Positions 13,931 to 63,091 of a stretch of DNA of 64,000 nt are shown in pieces. The position numbers and the translations under genes were made by a program. Origin of the DNA: Butyrivibrio sp. LC3010 (GTDB lineage: Bacteria; Bacillota; Clostridia; Lachnospirales; Lachnospiraceae); contig NZ_AUJU01000003.1 in assembly GCF_000424385.1 (NCBI RefSeq), positions 62,001-126,000 on the forward strand. Direction: 5' to 3'. The notes beneath the pieces are model-generated. The model was given only the letters and a program-made list of their open reading frames with translations, did not search any database and was not told where the DNA came from. Each line of letters begins with the position of its first letter. The first letter of the stretch is position 1.

Positions 13931-13977
13931 AATCTCCCTGGCTAGTGCTCTCTTTTAGATAAGAATTTCCTTTATGA

Positions 13978-14015
13978 ATCGAGTAGGAGGGAGTGATTAG
14001 CTCCCGTCCTCTCAC
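13978..14015 (-). ncRNA. Group II intron domain VI and 3' end
   Basis: On the minus strand the segment reads GTGAGAGGACGGGAG, then CTAATCA, then CTCCCTCCTACTCGAT: a hairpin with the unpaired A expected for the branch point. It is separated from domain V by the 3.4-kb first RIT element. Confidence 0.75.
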
Positions 14016-14020
14016 AGCAC

Positions 14021-14102
14021 TTATCCCGACTTTCGAGTTATCTTGAAATATGATATTTTTTCTTTTGTCCTCGGTGCTTTCTGAGTGAAATTTCAAGATA
14101 AC
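14021..14102. repeat. RIT1 left end: three recombinase-site-like motifs
   Basis: TTATCCCGAC at 14021, GTTATCTTGAAAT at 14037-14049, and its exact inverted copy ATTTCAAGATAAC at 14090-14102. The offsets from the outer motif are 16 and 81 bp. They mirror the right end and match the geometry of RIT2. Confidence 0.8.
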
Positions 14103-14154
14103 TTATGTACCTTTAGTAGTGGAACTGCCATTAGATCTACTACAGGAGGTGCAT

Positions 14155-15375
14155 ATGGGAATGTATTTATCTGAACTAATTGAACAGGCAAATAAATGCT
14201 TGGAGAACATTGGGCTATCATCAGGAACCATAGATGATTACCAGTGTTCTGCATTTCGACCGATTGAAAGAAGACTTGGTAACTCTTTCATCACTGATTC
14301 GAGTATTATTCAAGAGCAGGAAACACACTTTTTATGTTTATTCGATAGCGAAGCTATCAGCAGACAAACCTTGAACTGGAGAATCCGTGGAATTCGTATT
14401 CTTGTAGAAGTCTTTGATACTGGCTGCTTCGATTGGAAAGTCTTTAGCAAAAAGAAGCTCATTTCCATCCCTAAAGCTTATGAGGACCTTCTCGAACGCT
14501 TTATTGAAAAACAAACTTGTAGCGATAAAAGGAAAGCATGTAAACGATCTATATGTCGGAGATTTCTGAATTATTTATCTGACGAAGGGATTATAGAAGT
14601 CTCGTCTATCCTTCCTCAGCATGTAAGTGGCTTCATTATTGAAATTTCAAAAGACCGTCCAAAAAGTATGGATGATGTCATCAGCTCCCTTAAAGGTTTT
14701 TTTCAGTTTCTATGCGGGTGTGGCATGTATGACAGCAACCACTGGTTACTGCTTTCTGCTCCAAGAAGTAGGGATTATCGGGTTCGTGACTGTGTAACAA
14801 TCGATGAAGTGATTGACCTGCTTGAGAGCATCCCTCGTGATACACCTTGCGGAAAAAGGGATTTTGCAGCAATGTCCCTCGCAGCTGTCAGCGGTTTGCG
14901 TGCTGGAGATATTGCCGCACTGGAGTTTGGTGATGTTGATTGGAAGCGATGTGAAATCCGAATAATACAGGGAAAAACTTCAGAGCCCCTAATTCTGCCT
15001 ATATCAAAAAGTATGTTGAATGCCCTGGCAGACTACATCTTGAATGGACGTCCGAAAACAGATGACAAACACATTTTTGTACGCCATTGTGCACCGTTTT
15101 GTCGTTATCATGATGGAGTGTCTATTGCATGTATCTTCCGCAAATACCTGAAAAAAGCAGGCATAAAGCATACAGTTGGTGACGGGAAGACTTTGCATGG
15201 TATGCGTCGCGGTCTTGGGACCGGCATGGCAGTTAATGGAGTATCTGTTGATCTTGTTGCTCAGGTCCTTGGTCATAATGGAACAAAGGCTACAAAGCAA
15301 TACATTTCCGCAGACATGGAGAGGCTTCGTGAGTGTGCTCTCAGCCTTAAATCATTGGGAGGTGATCTGCGATGA
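14155..15375 (+). CDS. RIT1 tyrosine recombinase A
   Basis: A 406-residue phage-integrase-family recombinase. The start is the ATG at 14155 with CAGGAGGT seven bases upstream; a GTG at 14119 is in frame but lacks such a site. The C-terminal catalytic domain shows the Arg in SGLRAGDI, the Lys in QGKTSEP, the HGMR box, the His in VLGHNG and the nucleophile Tyr in KQYIS. The full R-K-H-R-H-Y set is thus present. The N-terminal part holds a SAM-like core-binding domain. The last codons overlap gene B (ATGA). It is first of three and clearly homologous to RIT2 gene A, but far from identical to it. Confidence 0.9.
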   Translation: MGMYLSELIEQANKCLENIGLSSGTIDDYQCSAFRPIERRLGNSFITDSSIIQEQETHFLCLFDSEAISRQTLNWRIRGIRILVEVFDTGCFDWKVFSKKKLISIPKAYEDLLERFIEKQTCSDKRKACKRSICRRFLNYLSDEGIIEVSSILPQHVSGFIIEISKDRPKSMDDVISSLKGFFQFLCGCGMYDSNHWLLLSAPRSRDYRVRDCVTIDEVIDLLESIPRDTPCGKRDFAAMSLAAVSGLRAGDIAALEFGDVDWKRCEIRIIQGKTSEPLILPISKSMLNALADYILNGRPKTDDKHIFVRHCAPFCRYHDGVSIACIFRKYLKKAGIKHTVGDGKTLHGMRRGLGTGMAVNGVSVDLVAQVLGHNGTKATKQYISADMERLRECALSLKSLGGDLR

Positions 15376-16316
15376 ACATCTCCAATTGCATCAATGGAAT
15401 GCTTGAATACAAAGAAAGCCTTGGCTTTTCTAAGGATACATATGAGTATTTCCTCAAGGATTTTTGTAAATATTTCATAGAGAACGGTTATTCACAGTTC
15501 ACAGAAGAAACTGTTTCCACATGGTGCATTAGAAGGCCAACCGAATCGCCAGAAGGCTTTCGTCGGAGGATCACACCGTTACGCGAATTCTCCAAATATT
15601 TATGTGCCATAGGTGAAACGGAGTATGTGATACCGACATCTATTTTACCGATTACGCATAGGGAAATGCCATATATTATCACAGATCAGGAACTACGGAA
15701 TCTTTTTGCAGAATGTGACAGAGAGCCATTCTGTAAGCAGAGCCCCTGCCGCCATCTGATTATCCCTGTGATTTTCCGGTTGATATATTGCTGCGGTTTA
15801 CGTCCTAATGAGGGACGCGAATTATTGCGAGATGATTTCAATGAGGTAGAAGGTACTCTTTTCATAAGAAAGAATAAATCTCACAAAGAAAGGCGTATTC
15901 CTCTTTCTGATGATGTCGCTGCTATGTGTCGAAACTACCTGCACGATAGCCGTAAAGTAATTCCGAATACTGAGTACATGTTTCCGTCCCCGGACGGGGG
16001 CAGCTATGAACGCAAATGGCTTTCTGAAACATTTCGCCGCCTGTGGAATGCATCAAACCCTGACAGCCCAGCAAAAAAAATCCGTGTTTATCTTCTCCGA
16101 CACAGATTTGCTACTGCTGTATTTACGAAATGGCTTAATGAAAACGCAGATCTCTACGCGAAAGTACCATACCTAAGTGCTTACATGGGACATACCAAGT
16201 TTGAGGATACTGCATACTATATTCATCTATTACCCGAGAAGCTCTTATCATCTTCGGCAGTGGACTGGTCAAAGTTCAGCAGCCTGATTCCGGAGGTGAA
16301 AGACGATGACGAATAA
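15372..16316 (+). CDS. RIT1 tyrosine recombinase B (HxxR box altered to YxxR)
   Basis: A 314-residue tyrosine recombinase overlapping gene A by four bases, with GGGAGGTGAT upstream. The Arg is in CGLRPNEG, the Lys in KNKSHKERRIP, the second His in MGHTKF and the nucleophile Tyr in DTAYYIH. The box normally reading HxxR reads YLLRHRF, so the first His is a Tyr. That change is tolerated in some family members but may reduce activity. RIT2 gene B retains HDFR. Gene C begins within its last codons. It probably acts with A and C in one synaptic complex; separate roles within RIT trios are not established to my knowledge. Confidence 0.88.
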   Translation: MNISNCINGMLEYKESLGFSKDTYEYFLKDFCKYFIENGYSQFTEETVSTWCIRRPTESPEGFRRRITPLREFSKYLCAIGETEYVIPTSILPITHREMPYIITDQELRNLFAECDREPFCKQSPCRHLIIPVIFRLIYCCGLRPNEGRELLRDDFNEVEGTLFIRKNKSHKERRIPLSDDVAAMCRNYLHDSRKVIPNTEYMFPSPDGGSYERKWLSETFRRLWNASNPDSPAKKIRVYLLRHRFATAVFTKWLNENADLYAKVPYLSAYMGHTKFEDTAYYIHLLPEKLLSSSAVDWSKFSSLIPEVKDDDE

Positions 16317-17346
16317 TGCACTGTACTTTTATCGGAAAATACGGGATTATTTGAACATATATCTTCCAAACCAGAGAGGAGCGAGCCCGAATACTATAAA
16401 AGCATACAGAGAAGCCCTCAATGCGTTTATTGATTATAACGTTTCTCTTGAAAATCCCTTGAAACAGATTTCCTTCAGTTGCATTTCCAAAGATGCTGTA
16501 GAAAGCTTCCTGGATTGGCTGGAAAAAGGCAAGGGTTATAGTATCAGCAGCAGAAATCAGAGGTTGGCTGCAATTAAATCTTTTATGAAATATGCATCAG
16601 AACGAGATAAAACACTCATGGCTCTGAATCTCGAAATAGCGGATATCACAAAGAAGAAAAATACCGTTCCTCATGAGATTGAGTTTTTTAGCGAATCTGC
16701 TTTATCAATAATACTTGAACAACCTGACCAGAACAAGCGTAATGGACAGCGTGACCTGGTTTTTCTTATCCTTTTGTATGATACAGGTGCCAGAGTGCAA
16801 GAAATCCTTGACCTTCAGCTGCGGGATATCCATTTGGATGGTAATAGTCCTTTTGTTAGCGTGACAGGAAAAGGACGGAAAATGAGGACAATTCCAATCA
16901 TGGAAAAGACTCGAGACCATCTGATAAAGTATTGTCGAAAGTTCCATCCATCTGATCAACCGGATGATTATCTGTTTTATACTGATCGTAAAGGAATACG
17001 ATCACAAATGTCAGCGGATAATGTAGGTAAGTTTATTGCAAAATACGGCAGACAGGGTCATTTGAAATCAACAGAAGTTCCGGAACATCTGTATCCGCAT
17101 ATGTTTCGGCATTCGCGTGCAATGCACCTTTATCGGAATGGAATGCCATTGCCTTTAGTGGCAGAATGGCTTGGTCATTCCAAAATGGATACCACGCGAC
17201 AGTATTATGCAAATGCAGACACAACAATGAAGCAAGAGGCTATTGAAAAAGCAACATCAAAACTCAACCCACTAATAAATGGTGAATTAGATATTGATTG
17301 GGAAGATGATGAAGAGCTTCTGAAGAAACTTTATGGTTTGAAGTAA
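16306..17346 (+). CDS. RIT1 tyrosine recombinase C
   Basis: A 346-residue tyrosine recombinase starting 11 bases before the end of gene B, with GGAGGTGA upstream. An N-terminal SAM-like domain is visible (SPNTIKAYREALNAF). The catalytic set is intact: Arg in TGARVQEI, Lys in GKGRKMRT, HMFRH, His in LGHSKM and Tyr in RQYYAN. It resembles XerC/XerD more closely than A or B do. The tail is acidic. It is followed by the right end of the element. Confidence 0.9.
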   Translation: MTNNALYFYRKIRDYLNIYLPNQRGASPNTIKAYREALNAFIDYNVSLENPLKQISFSCISKDAVESFLDWLEKGKGYSISSRNQRLAAIKSFMKYASERDKTLMALNLEIADITKKKNTVPHEIEFFSESALSIILEQPDQNKRNGQRDLVFLILLYDTGARVQEILDLQLRDIHLDGNSPFVSVTGKGRKMRTIPIMEKTRDHLIKYCRKFHPSDQPDDYLFYTDRKGIRSQMSADNVGKFIAKYGRQGHLKSTEVPEHLYPHMFRHSRAMHLYRNGMPLPLVAEWLGHSKMDTTRQYYANADTTMKQEAIEKATSKLNPLINGELDIDWEDDEELLKKLYGLK

Positions 17347-17350
17347 AAAA

Positions 17351-17433
17351 GTTATCCCGACTTTCATCAGGCAAACTCCAAGAAGACAGTATATCTGACA
17401 GTAAGTTTCAGGATAATCAGGAAGTCGGGATAA
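17351..17433. repeat. RIT1 right end: inverted counterpart of the left-end motif array
   Basis: GTTATCCCGA at 17351, the reverse motif TTTCAGGATAAT ending at 17417 and the outer reverse motif GTCGGGATAA ending at 17433. Offsets from the outer motif are 16 and 82 bp, as at the left end. Confidence 0.8.
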
Positions 17434-17465
17434 GTGCTGTTATCCTGAATTCAGGATAACAGCAC
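17434..17465. repeat. 32-bp perfect palindrome holding two target copies
   Basis: The half-site gtgctgttatcctgaa (17434-17449) is followed by its exact reverse complement (17450-17465). The outer five bases are an inverted and a direct copy of the target agcac. The inner 22 bp are two head-to-head end-type motifs. There is no T-run, so it is not a terminator. Confidence 0.9.
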
Positions 17466-17492
17466 CGTACGTACCGTTCGGTATACGGCGCT
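17461..17492 (-). ncRNA. Group II intron domain V
   Basis: On the minus strand the segment reads AGCGCCGTATACC, GAAC, then GGTACGTACGGTGCT. The outer eight bases pair (agcgccgu with acggugcu) and the molecule begins with the AGC catalytic triad. The GNRA-like cap is GAAC. The maturase stop codon lies two bases upstream. The RIT1 insertion sits immediately after its last base and duplicates its final five bases. Confidence 0.85.
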
Positions 17493-17493
17493 T

Positions 17494-18193
17494 TCAATAG
17501 TTGACGTGCACGGACTGATAGGCTGTGGCTAAATCATAAAAGCCACTGTTTATCAGTCTTTCTTTTGTCATCGCCATGTTGACTGCGACTGTATGTGTGG
17601 TAAACCAATATCCACGCCGACTGTTTCCAGCCATGTACGCCAAGTCCTCGGGTACACCCATCTTAATCAGATTTCGCACCTTTGTCTTGGGCTTCTTCCA
17701 TTGTTTCCATATACACATACGGATTCTGTGATAGAGCCATCCATTGATCTCGTCGATGTTATTCTTCATGCTTGCTATGCCGTAATAGTTAAGCCACCCT
17801 CTCGCATATACCTTGATTTTCCCAAGACTCGGTTTGATGGACTGTACAGACTTACGGGAAGATAAATCTTTCAGTTTTGACTTGAACTTCTTCCATGACT
17901 TTGGATGAACCCTGACGAAAACGCCACTTCCGTTCCTTCCCAATGCAAAGCCAAGGAATTTAAAATTTCGGATTGCAAACGCGCTTACAGTACGGCTTTT
18001 CTCTCGATTAACCGTTAGCTTCAGTTTGTCTTCGAGATATTTCGTACTGCTTTCCAAGAGTCTCTCTGATGCTCTTTTGCTTTTCGCTAGAAGAACGATA
18101 TCATCTGCATATCTTATGCAGGGCACACCTCTTTTCAGAAACTCTTGGTCAAACTCATTGAGGTAGATATTCGCAAGAAGCGGAGATAGATTT
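17494..18193 (-). pseudogene. ltrA: Group II intron maturase, 3' fragment (RT palm to X domain)
   Basis: This is the continuation of the intron-encoded protein after the RIT2 insertion. The frame resumes at NLSPLLANIYLNEFD, includes the YADD active site, the thumb/X maturase region (WLNYYG), and ends with AYQSVHVNY just before domain V. It has no initiation codon of its own until an internal ATG near 18126. Joined to the 5' fragment at 21714 it is in frame without any other defect. No HNH endonuclease domain follows, as usual for IIC-type introns. Confidence 0.88.
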
Positions 18194-18198
18194 CCACC

Positions 18199-18282
18199 TT
18201 ATGTCTAGTTTTGTGTTATGCATAGTTAGTGCTCCTCAGCGCAGAATTCATATGGTTTAAGCGCTATATTACTCGGCATAAT
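18199..18282. repeat. RIT2 left end: three recombinase-site-like motifs
   Basis: TTATGTCTAG at 18199, GTTATGCATAG at 18215 and the reverse motif CTCGGCATAAT ending at 18282. The offsets are 16 and 83 bp, equivalent to RIT1. Confidence 0.75.
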
Positions 18283-18394
18283 TCAATATCCCTATCCTTT
18301 TAGTATGCAGTATATACTTTTTGATTATCAGACTTATAAACGCAGTGTTTATCCGCTATTCTGTAATCACCAAAAGATGAAAGGAGGCTTCGAT

Positions 18395-19630
18395 ATGACT
18401 CTAACAGTGATTACAGATGGATTACTATCATTACTTGAAAAGAATAATTACAATCCTGCGACCATCAGGTTTTATAAACGAGAATGGTCAAAGATCAGCC
18501 GCTTTATCCTCTCCGAGTACGGAGACGAAGAATTCGACATGGAACGCGGCATGGCGTACCTTGAAAAGACCTATAACCTTGTAACCAAATATAACGATGG
18601 CACATTGTCCCAGCAACGGGTGCAGCTTTTAAGAGTGGTCCATATGTTGGAGGATTATCGTCTCCATCAGGTGCTTACTCAGCGATTCTATGCAGCTAAG
18701 AATCCGATTAAGCTTAATGAATACTTTTCTGGAATTCACGACAAGTATGTTGAGTTTTTGAACTCTCCTGAGATTTCAAAAAGCACACACAAACACTATA
18801 AGCGCATTTCATTAGTTTTCATGGATTACCTTACTCAAAAAAGTGTGTCTGATATCAATGAACTGGATATGGAATTATGCAATGGCTATATCAAAACTTT
18901 GGCAGGTTTCAGTTTCAAAACCATTGAACAGGATATATGCGGGCTCAGACATTTTCTTCGATATCTCAAGGATTCAGGCATTTTTGAGAACTCCTTTGCT
19001 GATAAGATTCACGTACCACTCGTATCAAAGACTTCTCACATTCCATCCGCATGGAAGCCTGAAGAATTGAAAAAACTGTTGGCTGCTGTGGATCGTAACA
19101 GTCCTATCGGGAAACGGGACTATGCCATGATGGTTCTTGCTTGTGTAATGGGATTAAGAATCAGTGATATCAAAGCATTGCGTTTTTCCAACTTTGACTG
19201 GAATAACAAAGTCTTGGCTATTGTTCAGCATAAAACCAAAAAATCACTGACACTTCCTCTTCCGGACCAGGTAGGCTGGGCTGTTATTGATTACATCAAA
19301 AACGGACGACCTGATTATGACGGTTCTGATTACGTGTTTCTAAAGCATATGCCTCCATTCAATTCGTTTTCTGATAGCGACCATTTGCAGCAACGTATCA
19401 TATACCACATGCAGAAAGCTGGCATACGCAGGGACAAGGACAGACACTCCGGTTTTCATTCTTTAAGACAATCCGCAGCATCAATTATGCTGGAAATGGA
19501 AACTCCGCTACCTGTAATCACTACTGTATTAGGGCATTCAGACATGGATATAACCGCTGTGTATTTAAAAACTGATATACAAAAGCTTGCTGAATGTGTC
19601 CTACCTCCTGAGGATTTTGCCCATGAGTGA
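18395..19630 (+). CDS. RIT2 tyrosine recombinase A
   Basis: A 411-residue tyrosine recombinase. The start is the ATG at 18395 behind AAGGAGG; an in-frame ATG at 18305 has no such site. Catalytic residues seen: Arg in MGLRISDI, Lys in QHKTKKSL, HSLR (followed by Gln rather than His), His in LGHSDM and Tyr in AVYLKT. An N-terminal SAM-like core-binding region precedes them. It shares recognisable blocks with RIT1 A, for example GKRDYAMM and NGRPDYD. Its end overlaps gene B by eight bases. Confidence 0.9.
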   Translation: MTLTVITDGLLSLLEKNNYNPATIRFYKREWSKISRFILSEYGDEEFDMERGMAYLEKTYNLVTKYNDGTLSQQRVQLLRVVHMLEDYRLHQVLTQRFYAAKNPIKLNEYFSGIHDKYVEFLNSPEISKSTHKHYKRISLVFMDYLTQKSVSDINELDMELCNGYIKTLAGFSFKTIEQDICGLRHFLRYLKDSGIFENSFADKIHVPLVSKTSHIPSAWKPEELKKLLAAVDRNSPIGKRDYAMMVLACVMGLRISDIKALRFSNFDWNNKVLAIVQHKTKKSLTLPLPDQVGWAVIDYIKNGRPDYDGSDYVFLKHMPPFNSFSDSDHLQQRIIYHMQKAGIRRDKDRHSGFHSLRQSAASIMLEMETPLPVITTVLGHSDMDITAVYLKTDIQKLAECVLPPEDFAHE

Positions 19631-20606
19631 ATATACCTTTAAAAGCGTGTTTGCTGATGATATAAAGGAATTCATTTCATTAAAAAGAGCACTTGGGTTC
19701 AAATACGTTAGTGAGCAGGGAATGCTACAGCGCATAGATACATATTTTGCAGATAACAATGTACCTGTCCGGGAAATCACAAAGGAAATCTCTGATGGGT
19801 GGTGCAGGAAGCGAAGTCATGAGACATTAACAAATCAGTCCAACAGAATAAGTGTTATGCGTGTTTTTGCAAAATATCTGAATGATATAGGTGTGGCTGC
19901 TTATATTCCATTATCGGGCACATCAAGTAAAAAACATCATTACAATGCTCACATATATACAGACGATGAACTTAAGCGATTCTTTGCAGCTGTAGATGAA
20001 AGTAAGTCTGTGCCTTCTGAATGCCCGTACCGGGGCCAGGTCATGCCTGTATTCTTTAGGATACTTTACACGAGCGGAATGCGTGTATCTGAACTCAGGC
20101 TGGCTAGGATAAGTGATATAAACCTCGATGATGAATATATCATTGTGAAAGGCGGCAAAAATCAAAAGGATAGGATAGTACCTATCCACCACTCTCTTGC
20201 AGAGAAATGCAGGGAATTGAAATGCAGTATTCACAAGGATTCTTCAGATGACGAGTACTTTTTTATGCAGTACCCTGGAAGACCCATGACCTTAGTATGC
20301 GTTTACAAAAACTTTCGCAGATATCTCAGAAAAGCAGGCATCCCACATACAGGACGAGGCCCACGTGTTCATGATTTTCGCCATACTTTTTGTGTTAATC
20401 TACTGCTCAAATGGAGCAAAGAAGGCAAAGATCTGATGGCATATCTTCCATATATGAGAACCATGCTTGGCCATGAGGGATTTGAGGAAACAGCATACTA
20501 TCTCAAACTTACTGCAGAAGCATATCCGTTCATACGTGAAAGCCTTCAGCGGAGCTTTCCGTCTATTATTGAGGAGGTGACCTTCGATGACAGGGACTAC
20601 TACTGA
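19623..20606 (+). CDS. RIT2 tyrosine recombinase B
   Basis: A 327-residue tyrosine recombinase. The ATG at 19623 overlaps the stop of gene A (ATGAGTGA); TGAGGA upstream is a modest ribosome binding site, so coupling is likely. Catalytic set: Arg in SGMRVSEL, Lys in GGKNQKDR, HDFRH, His in LGHEGF and Tyr in TAYYLK, all present. Gene C starts 20 bases before its end. It is the counterpart of RIT1 B, whose HxxR box is altered. Confidence 0.9.
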   Translation: MSEYTFKSVFADDIKEFISLKRALGFKYVSEQGMLQRIDTYFADNNVPVREITKEISDGWCRKRSHETLTNQSNRISVMRVFAKYLNDIGVAAYIPLSGTSSKKHHYNAHIYTDDELKRFFAAVDESKSVPSECPYRGQVMPVFFRILYTSGMRVSELRLARISDINLDDEYIIVKGGKNQKDRIVPIHHSLAEKCRELKCSIHKDSSDDEYFFMQYPGRPMTLVCVYKNFRRYLRKAGIPHTGRGPRVHDFRHTFCVNLLLKWSKEGKDLMAYLPYMRTMLGHEGFEETAYYLKLTAEAYPFIRESLQRSFPSIIEEVTFDDRDYY

Positions 20607-21597
20607 TTTTTCAAAAGCAGTTACTTCCTTTTTAACTGATTATCTGCCTCTGCAGAGGGGATATTCAAAGAATACCATCTTAAGTTACAGGGATACGCTT
20701 AAGCTATTTGTACTGTTCCTGACTGAGGATAAGGATATGAAGTTGTCAAAGTTCACCATGGCAGATTTTTCACGTCCGCTTATTGTTGAATTCCTCGAAT
20801 GGTGCAGAAGCCGGGGATGTTCAGTATCAACGACAAACCAGAGGTTGGCTGCGCTGAAATCCTTTTCATCGTTTGCGCAGATAGAGTACATTGACTATAT
20901 CGCACCGCTTCTGGATGTGCAGGCTGTTCGTTCCAAAAAAACGGAAGGCAGGGAAATATCCTTCCTGAGTGCAGAACAGATGTCAAAGCTGATCAATTAT
21001 CCAGATGCCAATACGTGCAGTGGACTTCGCCATAGGACAGCGCTTACGCTTCTTTATGATAGCGGCTGCCGCGTTCAGGAATTGTGTGACATAAAACTAA
21101 AGGACATAAATACCAATACTAATCCTACGCTGCGACTTCATGGAAAAGGTGATAAATACCGAACAGTTGTCATCGATGATAAAACCGCAAGGCTTGTAAA
21201 AGAATACATAATCCGCCTTAGGAGTGGTGCCATGCCAGATCATCCGCTTATAACCAATAGAAGCGGTAAATCCATAAGTAGAGATGGCATACAGTACATA
21301 ATTGATAAATATGTTTCTAAAATCCATAACGAAGACTGCTCATTTCCTGCGCATGTCCATTGTCATCAATTCCGCCACAGCAAGGCAATGCACATGCTCG
21401 CAGCCAATATAAACATCGTATATATCCGCGATTTTCTCGGACATGAAGATATTTCCACGACCATGATCTACAGTAGAGCAGATAATCGTCTGAAAAACGA
21501 AGCCATAAATGCTCTGGCGCCTAAAGTAACAGATAACATTAACCTTCCCGACTGGAGGGCGGATTCGGAACTTCTAAGCTTTTTGAACTCTTTTTAG
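20587..21597 (+). CDS. RIT2 tyrosine recombinase C
   Basis: A 336-residue XerC/D-like recombinase with GAGGAGGTGA upstream. The N-terminal SAM-like domain begins LQRGYSKNTILSYRDT. Catalytic set: Arg in SGCRVQEL, Lys in GKGDKYRT, HQFRH, His in LGHEDIS and Tyr in MIYSRA. The set is complete. It ends six bases before the first right-end motif of the element. Confidence 0.9.
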   Translation: MTGTTTDFSKAVTSFLTDYLPLQRGYSKNTILSYRDTLKLFVLFLTEDKDMKLSKFTMADFSRPLIVEFLEWCRSRGCSVSTTNQRLAALKSFSSFAQIEYIDYIAPLLDVQAVRSKKTEGREISFLSAEQMSKLINYPDANTCSGLRHRTALTLLYDSGCRVQELCDIKLKDINTNTNPTLRLHGKGDKYRTVVIDDKTARLVKEYIIRLRSGAMPDHPLITNRSGKSISRDGIQYIIDKYVSKIHNEDCSFPAHVHCHQFRHSKAMHMLAANINIVYIRDFLGHEDISTTMIYSRADNRLKNEAINALAPKVTDNINLPDWRADSELLSFLNSF

Positions 21598-21603
21598 CAA
21601 AAT

Positions 21604-21713
21604 GTTATGCCGAGCTTAACATACCTTATTAGCACAAACATTATATCTGTGAGGTTTAACTCGGCATAACAACTAGCTCGACATAAGGTGGGTTATGTAG
21701 ATATCCGCATAAT
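21604..21713. repeat. RIT2 right end: motif array plus 22-bp near-palindrome
   Basis: GTTATGCCGAG at 21604, its exact reverse complement ending at 21670, and CTCGACATAA ending at 21686 (offsets 16 and 82 bp). Then come ggtgg, the 22-bp segment centred on GATATC (21692-21713) and ccacc. The outer 32 bp (21687-21718) form an imperfect palindrome. Confidence 0.82.
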
Positions 21714-22408
21714 CCACCTTGCGGTGAACCTTCCTCTGTATCAATGACCACTCCGTTTTCCATTACCCCACTTTTCAGATAACGCTTTATTAGTTGAACT
21801 ACACGTTCATCCTTCACATTCTTTCTGAGGAGAGTGATAAGGATTTCATGATTCAAGGTGTCGAAATACTTTGATAAGTCCAAGACTACCGCAAAAGTGT
21901 AACCTTGTTCTGCGTATTCCTTTACCTTCTGTATAGCATCCTTTGCGCTTCTGTTTGGACGATAGCCGTAGCTTCCGTCCGCAAACAATGGTTCATAGAT
22001 GGGCACTAACTGTTGAGTTATTGCCTGTTGGAGTGTTCGGTCTATCACGGTAGGTATGCCAAGCTTGCGCACACCACCATCTGGTTTTGGAATCTCAACT
22101 CGCCTGACTGGCGATGGGGTATACTTGCCGCGGTATATGCGGTCAATTAACTCCTGTTGATGTTCCTTAAGGTACGGAAGTGCCTCTTCAATGGTCATAC
22201 CATCAATACCTGGCGCTCCCTTGTTTGCCTTAACTCTTTTGTACGCTCTGTTAAAGTTATCCTTATACAGTATCGCTTCCAAGAGCTTCGGCTGTGCACT
22301 GTCTCTTTCTTTCCATATCCGATTGAATGACCTAAGCGCTTTCGCATACCCTTCATGTTCCGCACTATCTCTTTGCGAACAGCCATTATTATCTATGTTT
22401 TCTGCCAT
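21714..22408 (-). pseudogene. ltrA: Group II intron maturase, 5' fragment (RT fingers and palm)
   Basis: The start is the ATG at 22408 behind AAGGAGGAATG. The fragment covers RT0 to RT4: ANKGAPGIDGM, VRRVEIPKPDGG, LGIPTVIDR, GYRPNRSAKDA, DLSKYFDTLNH and EEGSPQGG. The reading frame then runs into RIT2 end sequence and stops at 21656 after about 14 foreign codons. Together with 17494-18193 it totals 1395 nt, 464 codons plus stop, in frame. The protein would bind, splice and reverse-transcribe its intron. Confidence 0.88.
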
Positions 22409-22880
22409 TAGCGGTCATTCCTCCTTTCTCGGTCATACTTAAGACTCCTACTGATTCGGTCCTTCGGTTAGCATGTCCATGTTTCCATGTCCATATCCCT
22501 ACTATGACCTCTGCTGACTTCTGCGTGCTCAGCACCGCCTCGTTTCCTTGTGCGGTGGTTACTCCTTTCAGAGCATTTCACACAGACCTCCCTAGGTACC
22601 ACACGTTTCTTCCTCTCCATCCATCTGTCTCATTTATTATGCATGGTTCCGTGTAGTTATTGGGCTTCGACTTGTTCAGCAGCCTTACCCTCATGCATAA
22701 CCTCGTATGAGATTTCTGTACGTCAGACCAGAGATTTGCCCGTGGGTTAGTATGTTCCCCACATCCAGCTTCCTTCAGATTCCGCCTCGCGACGGACACC
22801 CTTGCTTTCGGCTATATCCTTCCCACTACCGGGTGGATTCGGGACTTTAACCCGTTAGAAACGTGCGCCGCTAGGCGCAC
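22409..22880 (-). ncRNA. Group II intron 5' ribozyme region (domains I to III)
   Basis: These 472 bases carry no gene. On the minus strand they begin with the GTGCGCC/GGCGCAC hairpin and include CCGAAAGCAAGGGTG and CTAACCCACGGG segments typical of domain I of ORF-bearing bacterial introns. They end 5' of the maturase start. Subdomain boundaries were not drawn. Confidence 0.7.
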
Positions 22881-61918: not shown

Positions 61919-63091
61919 TTACATCTCCATCAAAGCTTCTGCAATCCTGTCAGCACCCTGACCGTCAATAAGCTTTTTTAGTTTGTTTGATATATCTATA
62001 CGCTCTGTGGTATCCATGGACATTACTTCCTCTATGTAGGCGACAATAGCCATCAGAACCTCATTTACGTCTTCCCTGAAATCTCCGGCATAAGGGACAT
62101 ATCCCTCTCTTGCAAAATATAATGCATCCGGCTCCTGATTCTCAGCAAAGACAAAGCTTATGGAAGGAACTCCTACCGCACATAGCTCATACAGTGTTGT
62201 TCCTGCCGGAGTTATGGCTACATCACAGCTGTTCATAATGTCCGCCACATTGGACACATTCTGATGAAGCGCCACATATCCGTCCTCAATATACTGCTGA
62301 ACCTTCTCAGTTACCCTGTAGAAGCGTCCTGCCAAAAGATGAATTTTCTTTTTTCCGTCTTTAAAATGAAGCTCAGGATATCTCATGATTGCACTGATAA
62401 TCATCTCAGATAATCCCATACTGTCTGCACCGCCAGTTGTAAGAAAGATGTTATCAATTCCTCCTATATCGTAGCCAAAGGTCCTGTGAGCACCATCCGC
62501 AGACTCCTGATTCTCGCCTGCCACAATGTCGATATTCACAAGAGCCTCTCCATCCGTACCAAGTCTTCCGATATCACTACTTATTCCTGTTCCACGGGAC
62601 ATCCTGTTTCTCTGTACAAACTGATCTCTTATGGGAATATACTTCGTTCCAAGAAGGAGTGTCGGTGCCTCTCCTTCATAGAATTCCTCATAGGCAAGAT
62701 CCGGAGCCCCGGGACTGTAATTTAGTATCGCAGTTGCCGGGAATCTTTCTTTTTGCATATCATCGATGTACATGGTGCGGATATCATTTGTTTCAAGCAT
62801 CCGGATATACTCAGGAGTTGCGTAATAGCTGTCAACCAGCATGGCTGAAATTCCTTCCTCATGAAGGAAATCAAGAAGAACTATTATCTCCTGCTCAGGA
62901 TTTCTCCAGTCTGAATCCAAAATCGCACATTCAAATTCACCCTGAATATAAGGGATTATATTATTATCAGCAGACACAAAGACGACAGAACACCCCATTT
63001 GCTGCAGGCTCATTGCAATAGTCCTGCAGCGCATGATATGTCCCGTCGCCACTATTTCGTTTGCATCCACACGAATCGCTATCTTACTCAA
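61919..63091 (-). CDS. pseG: PseG-like UDP-sugar hydrolase
   Basis: The TTG at 63091 is preferred because ATGGAGTG lies seven bases upstream; in-frame GTGs at 63097 and 63118 are alternatives. The 390-residue product starts SKIAIRVDANEIVATGHIMR, the glycine-rich PseG N-terminal motif with its His. It shows the GT-B-like C-terminal domain (FLTTGGADSM, HQNVSNVADIM, SCDVAITPAGTTLYEL). PseG removes UDP from the diacetamido-altrose precursor of pseudaminic acid. About 50 extra residues interrupt the middle (about 175-215), longer than usual PseG. It overlaps the pseI stop. Confidence 0.85.
   Translation of the reverse strand: MSKIAIRVDANEIVATGHIMRCRTIAMSLQQMGCSVVFVSADNNIIPYIQGEFECAILDSDWRNPEQEIIVLLDFLHEEGISAMLVDSYYATPEYIRMLETNDIRTMYIDDMQKERFPATAILNYSPGAPDLAYEEFYEGEAPTLLLGTKYIPIRDQFVQRNRMSRGTGISSDIGRLGTDGEALVNIDIVAGENQESADGAHRTFGYDIGGIDNIFLTTGGADSMGLSEMIISAIMRYPELHFKDGKKKIHLLAGRFYRVTEKVQQYIEDGYVALHQNVSNVADIMNSCDVAITPAGTTLYELCAVGVPSISFVFAENQEPDALYFAREGYVPYAGDFREDVNEVLMAIVAYIEEVMSMDTTERIDISNKLKKLIDGQGADRIAEALMEM

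Follow-up and report, generated by a model that had tools for sequence, protein, structure and literature searches.

Why should a short sequence occur three times at the borders of a RIT element, twice in direct and once in inverted orientation? The question arises from a stretch of the genome of Butyrivibrio sp. LC3010 (64,000 nucleotides, positions 62,001 to 126,000 of contig NZ_AUJU01000003.1; here called the window), which contains two such elements, RIT1 and RIT2. The initial annotation described a 5-bp target in triplicate at each of them, with the inner and outer right copies 22 bp apart. All six 5-mers were found where it had placed them, and the distance of 22 bp was confirmed. The triplicate repeat is real, but its unit is 6 bp and not 5, and the insert is a 20-bp palindrome and not 22 bp, since the register of aligned relatives (6 bp plus 20 bp) ruled out a 5-bp unit with a 22-bp insert. 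As the annotation rightly pointed out, a simple target-site duplication leaves the middle copy unexplained. We consider it highly likely that the answer lies in a circle with two cores, through which the element maintains a three-slot shift register of its landing sites.

Reading each element from its palindrome-free end, we distinguish slot 1 (Xb), the body, slot 2 (X′, inverted), the palindrome, and slot 3 (Xa). Slot 1 of RIT1 is CAGCAC (14015 to 14020, plus strand), which adjoins the palindrome-free end and, by analogy with relatives, would be the native 6-mer of the target. Slot 2 is CAGCAC inverted (GTGCTG; 17434 to 17439, minus strand), the putative spacer of the second core, and slot 3 is again CAGCAC (17460 to 17465, plus strand), beyond the palindrome TTATCCTGAATTCAGGATAA (17440 to 17459), whose two head-to-head half-sites form 10/10 pairs. 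The corresponding slots 1 and 3 of RIT2 are TCCACC (18193 to 18198 and 21713 to 21718, both plus strand), and slot 2 is CCCACC inverted (GGTGGG; 21687 to 21692, minus strand), which differs from the outer copies at 1/6 positions, a synonymous Gly-Gly change in the reverse transcriptase frame; the RIT2 palindrome, TTATGTAGATATCCGCATAA (21693 to 21712), forms 8/10 pairs. When we counted the pattern of a 6-mer, a 20-bp palindrome with a paired centre and at least 8/10 pairs, and an inverted 6-mer matching at 5/6 or more positions, we found it twice in the window, both times at a RIT right end, whereas 40 order-1 Markov windows contained 0.125 such patterns on average and 3 at most. A looser scan gave one extra AT-rich match at ~52.2 kb, where the own-genome search had no PF00589 match. 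Given the left-end copies and the 3.4-kb trio between, we regard chance as excluded for the RIT1/RIT2 structure, which is a judgement and not a joint probability.

The same architecture recurs in other RIT loci. We scanned 107 of them (2 in the window, 19 from genus and order relatives, 6 from plasmids, and 80 from genome contigs), and 35/107 reached a score of at least 26, as did 31 of the 69 with room for both ends; when the end regions were shuffled once, no locus reached 26. Of the 35 loci, among them three with a palindrome on both sides, 20 had it on the ritA side and 15 had it on the ritC side. A control with displaced windows gave five matches, four of which were the palindromes of accepted loci and the fifth (L102) a RIT-like palindrome missed by the main scan. 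Every interpretable junction could be written as left half - 6 bp - right half, the left half being one side of the target or a palindrome half and the right half being the other side of the target or an element end; this rule left one side of L265, the right end of L063, and the left flank of L077 unexplained.

Near-identical RIT copies occur at different sites in relatives, and empty sites were sought for eight inserts. Slot 1 was native in all four inserts for which an empty site of at least 98% identity was found, namely, L036 (empty site L227, 98.1%), L039 (L228 and L232, 99.6%), L065 (L229, 99.3%, with L231 at 93% in agreement), and L054 (L179, 98.3%). It was also native in L051 as judged by the closest empty site (L143, 90%). 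Because L036 has its palindrome on the ritA side and L039, L065, and L054 have theirs on the ritC side, the native slot goes with the placement of the palindrome rather than with gene orientation; in these few relatives, the native 6-mer adjoins the palindrome-free end. Comparison of RIT copies with empty sites, which the initial annotation had proposed, thus showed one 6-mer to match the local target, while the other two had been carried in.

Where the carried 6-mers come from can be read in an IS66-targeting family of the Rhizobiaceae, one near-identical family in which the palindrome is found on either gene end. We compared 20 copies in seven strains, each with at least two copies (19 after merging L249 with L238); the strains were hand-picked among the matches listed, before any 6-mers except those of L036 and L039 were known. 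Bodies within a strain were 99.94 to 100% identical. In Rhizobium sp. C104, the slots of L235 read (GGCGGT, GGCAGT, TGCCGT), with the palindrome on the ritC side, and those of L036, which is 99.94% identical to L235 over 3399 bp, read (ACACGT, GGCGGT, GGCAGT), with the palindrome on the ritA side. The rule is that slot 2 of the daughter equals slot 1 of the parent, slot 3 of the daughter equals slot 2 of the parent, and the palindrome swaps gene ends. L241, on another plasmid of C104 and likewise 99.94% identical, has slots 2 and 3 of L036 and a different slot 1.

We found a parent-daughter pair obeying the rule in 7/7 strains. Ten ordered pairs matched by spacer, and all ten were flipped. Three kinds of shuffle were run for comparison: whole elements were exchanged between strains, columns were permuted across the full set of copies, or spacers were permuted inside each strain. 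The means were 1.15, 0.36, and 1.40 strains, respectively, and each shuffle reached seven strains in 0/20,000 runs. Without C104, where the pattern was first seen, there was still a pair in 6/6 strains (16 copies), and six strains were reached in 1/20,000 whole-element shuffles and 0/20,000 within-strain shuffles.

We propose that movement would proceed via a circular or circle-like copy with the junction end2 - spacer - palindrome - spacer - end1. The palindrome would represent two left half-sites back to back and the element ends would represent right half-sites, such that the circle would have two equivalent cores in inverted orientation. On integration, one core would enter the target (left half - 6 bp - right half). 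The 6-mer of the target itself would remain next to the palindrome-free end of the element (slot 1), the core used for integration would leave its spacer beyond the palindrome (slot 3), and the unused core would be kept inside (slot 2). At the next copy-out, slot 1 would enter the circle as the new junction and the older core would be used for integration, so that with each hop (slot 1, slot 2, slot 3) would become (new target, old slot 1, old slot 2), the palindrome passing to the other gene end. Two proposals of the initial annotation, that the short sequence acts as a strand-exchange spacer and that the palindrome end has two core sites in inverted array, are supported by these comparisons. 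The circle itself, the copy-out, the preference for the older core, and the obedience of RIT1 and RIT2 to the same rule are what we infer. The coexistence of parent-state and daughter copies suggests that the donor is retained, although coexistence is also a precondition for seeing such pairs. That every RIT copy is a self-recording register of its present and last two landing sites, with only the older core used and a flip at every hop, seems to us likely.

Several observations count against a register of this strictness. The pair L247/L246 of strain TP16 also fits use of the newer core, as it would if the circle had two cores without an ordered shift, either core being used at random and the internal 6-mer being an older spacer of no fixed depth. 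However, the usual rule also allows L238 as the parent of L246; at least one pair per strain is explained by the older core, and the pairs with the older-core spacer pattern were flipped in 10/10 cases, which makes random core use unlikely. The two copies of strain NXC12 each fit as the daughter of the other, and the strict rule rests on one Rhizobiaceae family that targets IS66. Of 12 plasmid records searched, three that hold RIT copies of this family had no match to the palindrome pattern, and the copies read from them show no such palindrome; for two palindromes located at the end of a record, a full copy could not be read. In a second family (Sinorhizobium meliloti ml28, L261/L262/L264, bodies 100% identical), the flip was seen and slots 2 and 3 were GAGAAA throughout, so that the shift is not readable there. 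Ruminococcus albus 7 carries two copies (L258 and L259, 99.86% identical) that differ only in slot 1, show no flip, and fit only as siblings. Two empty sites of L051 at 86 to 88% identity carry CTCAGC, which is nearer to slot 3 than to slot 1; those of L048a and L046 were ambiguous, and that of L076 aligns with a gap. Our first prediction of polarity, that slot 3 would be native where slot 2 equals slot 1, was refuted by the 98.3% empty site of L054; the reading that took its place, with slot 1 as the native one, was then borne out by L036, L039, and L065. In the scan, 72/107 loci failed, 38/107 being without room or worse, and no circle was seen.

Two further observations on these relatives can be set beside the register. 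L262 (CP140934.1, 1058404 to 1063462) has CATTAA in slot 1, and both of its carried 6-mers are GAGAAA; slot 1 is possibly a secondary target. The RIT copies L260 and L266, from two S. medicae strains, sit at one and the same position in IS66 and agree in slots 1 and 2, but their orientation is opposite and slot 3 reads CAGGAA versus TCGGAA; they could be two insertions or a local flip.

Ready-made RIT copies could in principle have been moved, and their flanks shuffled, by homologous recombination or by duplication of the host insertion sequence. L249 matches L238 in all three 6-mers and in the 40 bp flanking it on either side, and the two may go back to a single insertion that was duplicated along with its host IS66; they had been merged ahead of the permutation test. 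By our reasoning, such events would not move the palindrome to the other gene end and at the same time shift the 6-mers by one slot, and as an account of the family we find them barely credible.

The initial annotation held that each RIT insertion shows its target three times. This fails across the family. We curated 36 triples, consisting of the 35 loci from the scan without L104, L119, and L127, each of which has two palindromes, one per side, and with the addition of RIT2, L121, L126, and L138; these four have scores of 24 to 25 and were retained by eye (RIT2 as the given case). L047, L074, L097, and L115 were excluded for an untrustworthy outer 6-mer or far arm, and L058 and L059, of the 20 relative stretches, were excluded for having a ritC-like match only; no triple was readable in L035, L037, L038, or L040, and a scan of plasmid copies using the 5-mer register was unproductive. 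All three 6-mers were equal in only 3/36 triples (RIT1, L045, and L050); only slots 2 and 3 were equal in 8, only slots 1 and 2 in 8, and only slots 1 and 3 in 4, RIT2 among them, and in 13 all three differed.

These counts bear on two ways of generating the repeat that the initial annotation had considered. In the first, the 6-mer of the new target is copied into the element, by gene conversion, by hairpin template switching, or by inversion at the palindrome, to give three copies. The three identical triples fit such copying, as do RIT1 and its close relative L041, whose different internal 6-mers each match their own sites. However, 33/36 triples are not identical, and in 25/36 the 6-mer in slot 2 is not the one in slot 1, where the native 6-mer lies, so that copies without a matching inverted repeat, which the annotation had named as evidence against its reading, do exist in the wider family. 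The internal 6-mers of L036, L039, and L065 differ from the native 6-mers of their empty sites at 98% identity or above. Moreover, in three sets of siblings at different sites (L036/L241, L233/L234, and L236/L248), slots 2 and 3, the non-native 6-mers, are shared and slot 1 alone changes. Copying is highly improbable on this evidence: the spacer is indeed replaced at insertion, as the annotation had suggested, but by 6-mers carried over from earlier sites and not by copies of the new target.

In the second, the spacer is fixed, and insertion takes place only where the target offers an identical 6-mer. The 6-mers are alike within a family, and in the accessible part of a study of GInts, a closer match between attI and attB increased integration about tenfold (PMC5385486). 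Against this, the outer 6-mers differ in 29/36 triples and do so at 4/6 positions in L036, L039, L051, and L073, the internal 6-mer varies among bodies 97 to 100% identical, and conserved target codons would account for the likeness of the 6-mers. Targeting by spacer identity is contradicted in its strict form and is very unlikely as the explanation, a partial preference being possible.

The targets themselves are often conserved motifs of other mobile elements. The 6-mers lie on what we take to be the SPQGG/TPQGG codons of reverse transcriptases (RIT2 and L045); the LRH/MRH codons (L079, L085, L087, L098, L121, L123, L126, L129, and L135), FGK codons (L106), and GH[ST]KLE codons (L113 and L138) of tyrosine recombinases; the NNxxE codons of DDE transposases (L048b, L050, and L051); and GYTDM (L048a), PDNxK (L054), DEFGY (L053), and TDRG (L042) codons. 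In nine loci they presumably lie in the 3′ part of IS66 tnpC, and IS66 is named in the plasmid records for several sites. No motif was recognized in the joined flanks of L043, L044, and L056.

Differences among the 6-mers tend to respect these codons. In 17 of the 29 triples with different outer 6-mers, the two code for identical residues when read in the frame of the target, versus 3.4 expected for random 6-mers at equal distance, with frames set by the motifs that we had named; in L051, for example, CTCTCT and CTAAGC each read Leu-Ser. When slot 2 is unlike either outer 6-mer, it is synonymous in 8/16 cases versus 2.3 expected, without the mis-framed L057 (9/17 versus 3.3 with it); the count of 17/29 for the outer pairs does not depend on L057. 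The P values of this codon test overstate independence, because the frames were motif-chosen and target families are common to several loci, so that rows are not independent. The pattern suggests that slots 2 and 3 may be pieces of other copies of the same target gene and not drifted element DNA. Slot 3 of L087, GAGCCA, would change the LRH codons to LSH and looks like a hybrid of two spacers, perhaps arising from heteroduplex repair.

The near-perfect triplicates of RIT1 and RIT2 can be considered in the same light. Both elements lie inside one copy of a group II intron (13960 to 22800). Joining the flanks places RIT2 at the codons for SPQGG in the intron reverse transcriptase, the gene for which is thereby divided into a 5′ part (21719 to 22408, minus strand) and a 3′ reverse transcriptase/maturase part (17494 to 18192, minus strand). 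Intron domains D1-D4 (RF02001 and RF01998) lie at 22459 to 22796 on the minus strand. From the joined flanks and homologous sites, we take the RIT1 site to be domain V, a name that we assign from the consensus of the domain; Rfam gave no match over the site split by RIT1, its matches covering D1-D4 only. The intron is doubly broken, its domain V split by RIT1 and its reverse transcriptase gene by RIT2.

Among the matches listed in a search of the genus, 28 of 30 loci had enough aligned bases to read the homologous intron site, several of them from one genome; 17/28 carry GTGCTG, the 6-mer of RIT1 itself, 8/28 GTGGTG, and 3/28 GTGTTG. Three independent draws at these frequencies give three equal 6-mers in about a quarter of cases, with no copying needed. 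L041, the closest relative of RIT1 (RitA, RitB, and RitC 99, 98, and 95% identical; cut by a contig end), has CACCAC in slots 1 and 2, versus CAGCAC in RIT1, and CACCAC is the variant present at 8/28 of the homologous sites. The triple match of RIT1 most likely reflects a conserved target and not copying. Most likely, the 6-mer recurs unchanged in RIT1 and nearly so in RIT2 because each family enters one conserved sequence (intron domain V and the SPQGG codons, respectively), so that successive targets are alike. For the middle copy, the best reading is that it represents the spacer of the second core, left unused. At the same domain V position as RIT1, another genome carries a 1.8-kb insertion (G052:C3:109793-111635, starting in L196), and no TTATCC motif was found in the part of it that was checked.

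Some loci carry palindromes in other arrangements. RIT trios with a palindrome at both ends, and hence four spacers, were found at L104, L119, and L127; in L127, each of the two palindromes is followed by sequence resembling a target half. These three contigs were considered as direct proof of circles and rejected, as they had no terminal overlap. Two solo palindromes in genus relatives, L173 (G024:C2:166094-166113) and L175 (G112:C55:4576-4595), have no adjacent RIT end motifs; each appears to join two target halves of the same side, one from each of two transposase genes. The flanks, translated by eye, contain what we take to be IS3-like DQG and NNxxE motifs. Solo palindromes and double-palindrome loci are what use of both cores would leave, and the solo palindromes suggest that the second core may be live. 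A further solo palindrome, L265 (NZ_CP140925.1, 215742 to 215761), belongs to the second family, that of Sinorhizobium; it has a target-like half at one border, whereas the sequence at the opposite border looks unrelated.

Each of the two elements in the window has open reading frames for three overlapping tyrosine recombinase genes, all on the plus strand. The body of RIT1 (14021 to 17433, plus strand; 3413 bp) runs from TTATCCCGACTT to AAGTCGGGATAA and contains ritA (14155 to 15375; 406 amino acids from an internal ATG), ritB (15372 to 16316; 314 amino acids), and ritC (16306 to 17346; 346 amino acids). That of RIT2 (18199 to 21686, plus strand; 3488 bp) contains ritA (18395 to 19630), ritB (19623 to 20606), and ritC (20587 to 21597). 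Both lengths agree with the RIT size of ~3.5 kb. All six proteins match PF00589, the overlaps between neighboring genes are 4 to 20 bp, and a scripted pattern found the H..R...Y motif in 5/6 of the proteins, missing RitB of RIT1, in which LRH, MGH, and Y are visible by eye. Between the ends of each element there are only the three PF00589 genes, with no fourth gene and no cargo. The exact 20-mer of the RIT1 palindrome occurs once in its own genome. At both ends of RIT1 (14021 to 14048 and 17406 to 17433) there are two direct subsites, TTATCCCGACTT and TTATCYTGAA, the latter resembling a palindrome half; judging from sequence, the two are possibly candidate binding sites for different Rit proteins.

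If the scheme is true, the register would allow transposition events to be ordered from sequence alone and genealogies to be read from one genome, each copy being a travel log of its present site and two earlier landing-site 6-mers. The two-core circle with its palindromic middle also gives a concrete scheme with testable roles for three enzymes. A RIT element would parasitize other mobile elements at codons of conserved motifs (in reverse transcriptases, tyrosine recombinases, and transposases), a target that can hardly mutate away, while tolerating synonymous changes of spacer.

How does this compare with what is known? In the accessible parts of two earlier papers (PMC3414803 and PMC2864759), RIT elements are three overlapping tyrosine recombinase genes of ~3.5 kb, with an inverted repeat and a palindrome flanking ritA and ritC, that insert in transposase genes. 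Those parts report no convincing recombinase binding sites beyond a 28-9 bp inverted repeat with an overlapping palindrome and describe no RIT spacer, target motif, or mechanism. The terminal inverted repeat with an overlapping palindrome, a RIT feature according to the same source (PMC3414803), is present in RIT1 and RIT2. We found no description of the second core, the third slot, or the flip in the literature searched, including the accessible parts of PMC3414803, PMC2864759, PMC5385486, and PMC10214605, a scope that lies outside the dedicated RIT paper of Ricker et al. 2013, and earlier notice of part of the scheme is possible.

The strand-biased circularizing integrative elements (SE elements) are described, in the parts of PMC10214605 and PMC9345347 available, as having a 6-bp spacer, as we propose for RIT; the circle takes up the 6-mer of one end, the 6-mer brought along comes to lie at the opposite end, and no empty donor site is left. 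The same parts describe one joint (attS) per circle and two 6-mers, with no palindrome or flip. SE elements carry intA, CDS2 (tfp), intB, and CDS4 (srap), whereas RIT1 and RIT2 have three tyrosine recombinases only. The SE feature of a native 6-mer at one fixed end and a carried one at the opposite end recurs in the RIT relatives (4/4 at 98% identity or above, and L051 at 90%), so that RIT elements work alike without being members of the group.

The Tn916 element offers another likeness, in that its coupling sequences are variable flanks that travel with the element; in Tn916, unlike RIT, the heteroduplex is resolved either way, and there is one core and no ordered memory. For Tn554 and Tn552-II, the accessible text of PMC12486829 states that the new copy receives the donor att at its right end and that the circle spacer comes mostly from the left att; Tn552-II is described there with a 7-bp spacer, tnpABC, and two end slots, with no inverted second core. 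The tnpA, tnpB, and tnpC set of the Tn554 family differs from the three PF00589 proteins of RIT1 and RIT2. GInts resemble RIT in having three integrase-type genes, a 6-nt staggered exchange, and an att that changes at excision, and they differ in having a fourth gene, cargo, and site-specific integration, with no palindrome mentioned in the accessible part of PMC5385486; the ginABCD operon and cargo are not present in RIT1 or RIT2. The proposed uptake of slot 1 would be the same as the att-brought-in rule of Tn554-like elements and SE elements, which the second core, the third slot, and the flip would extend.

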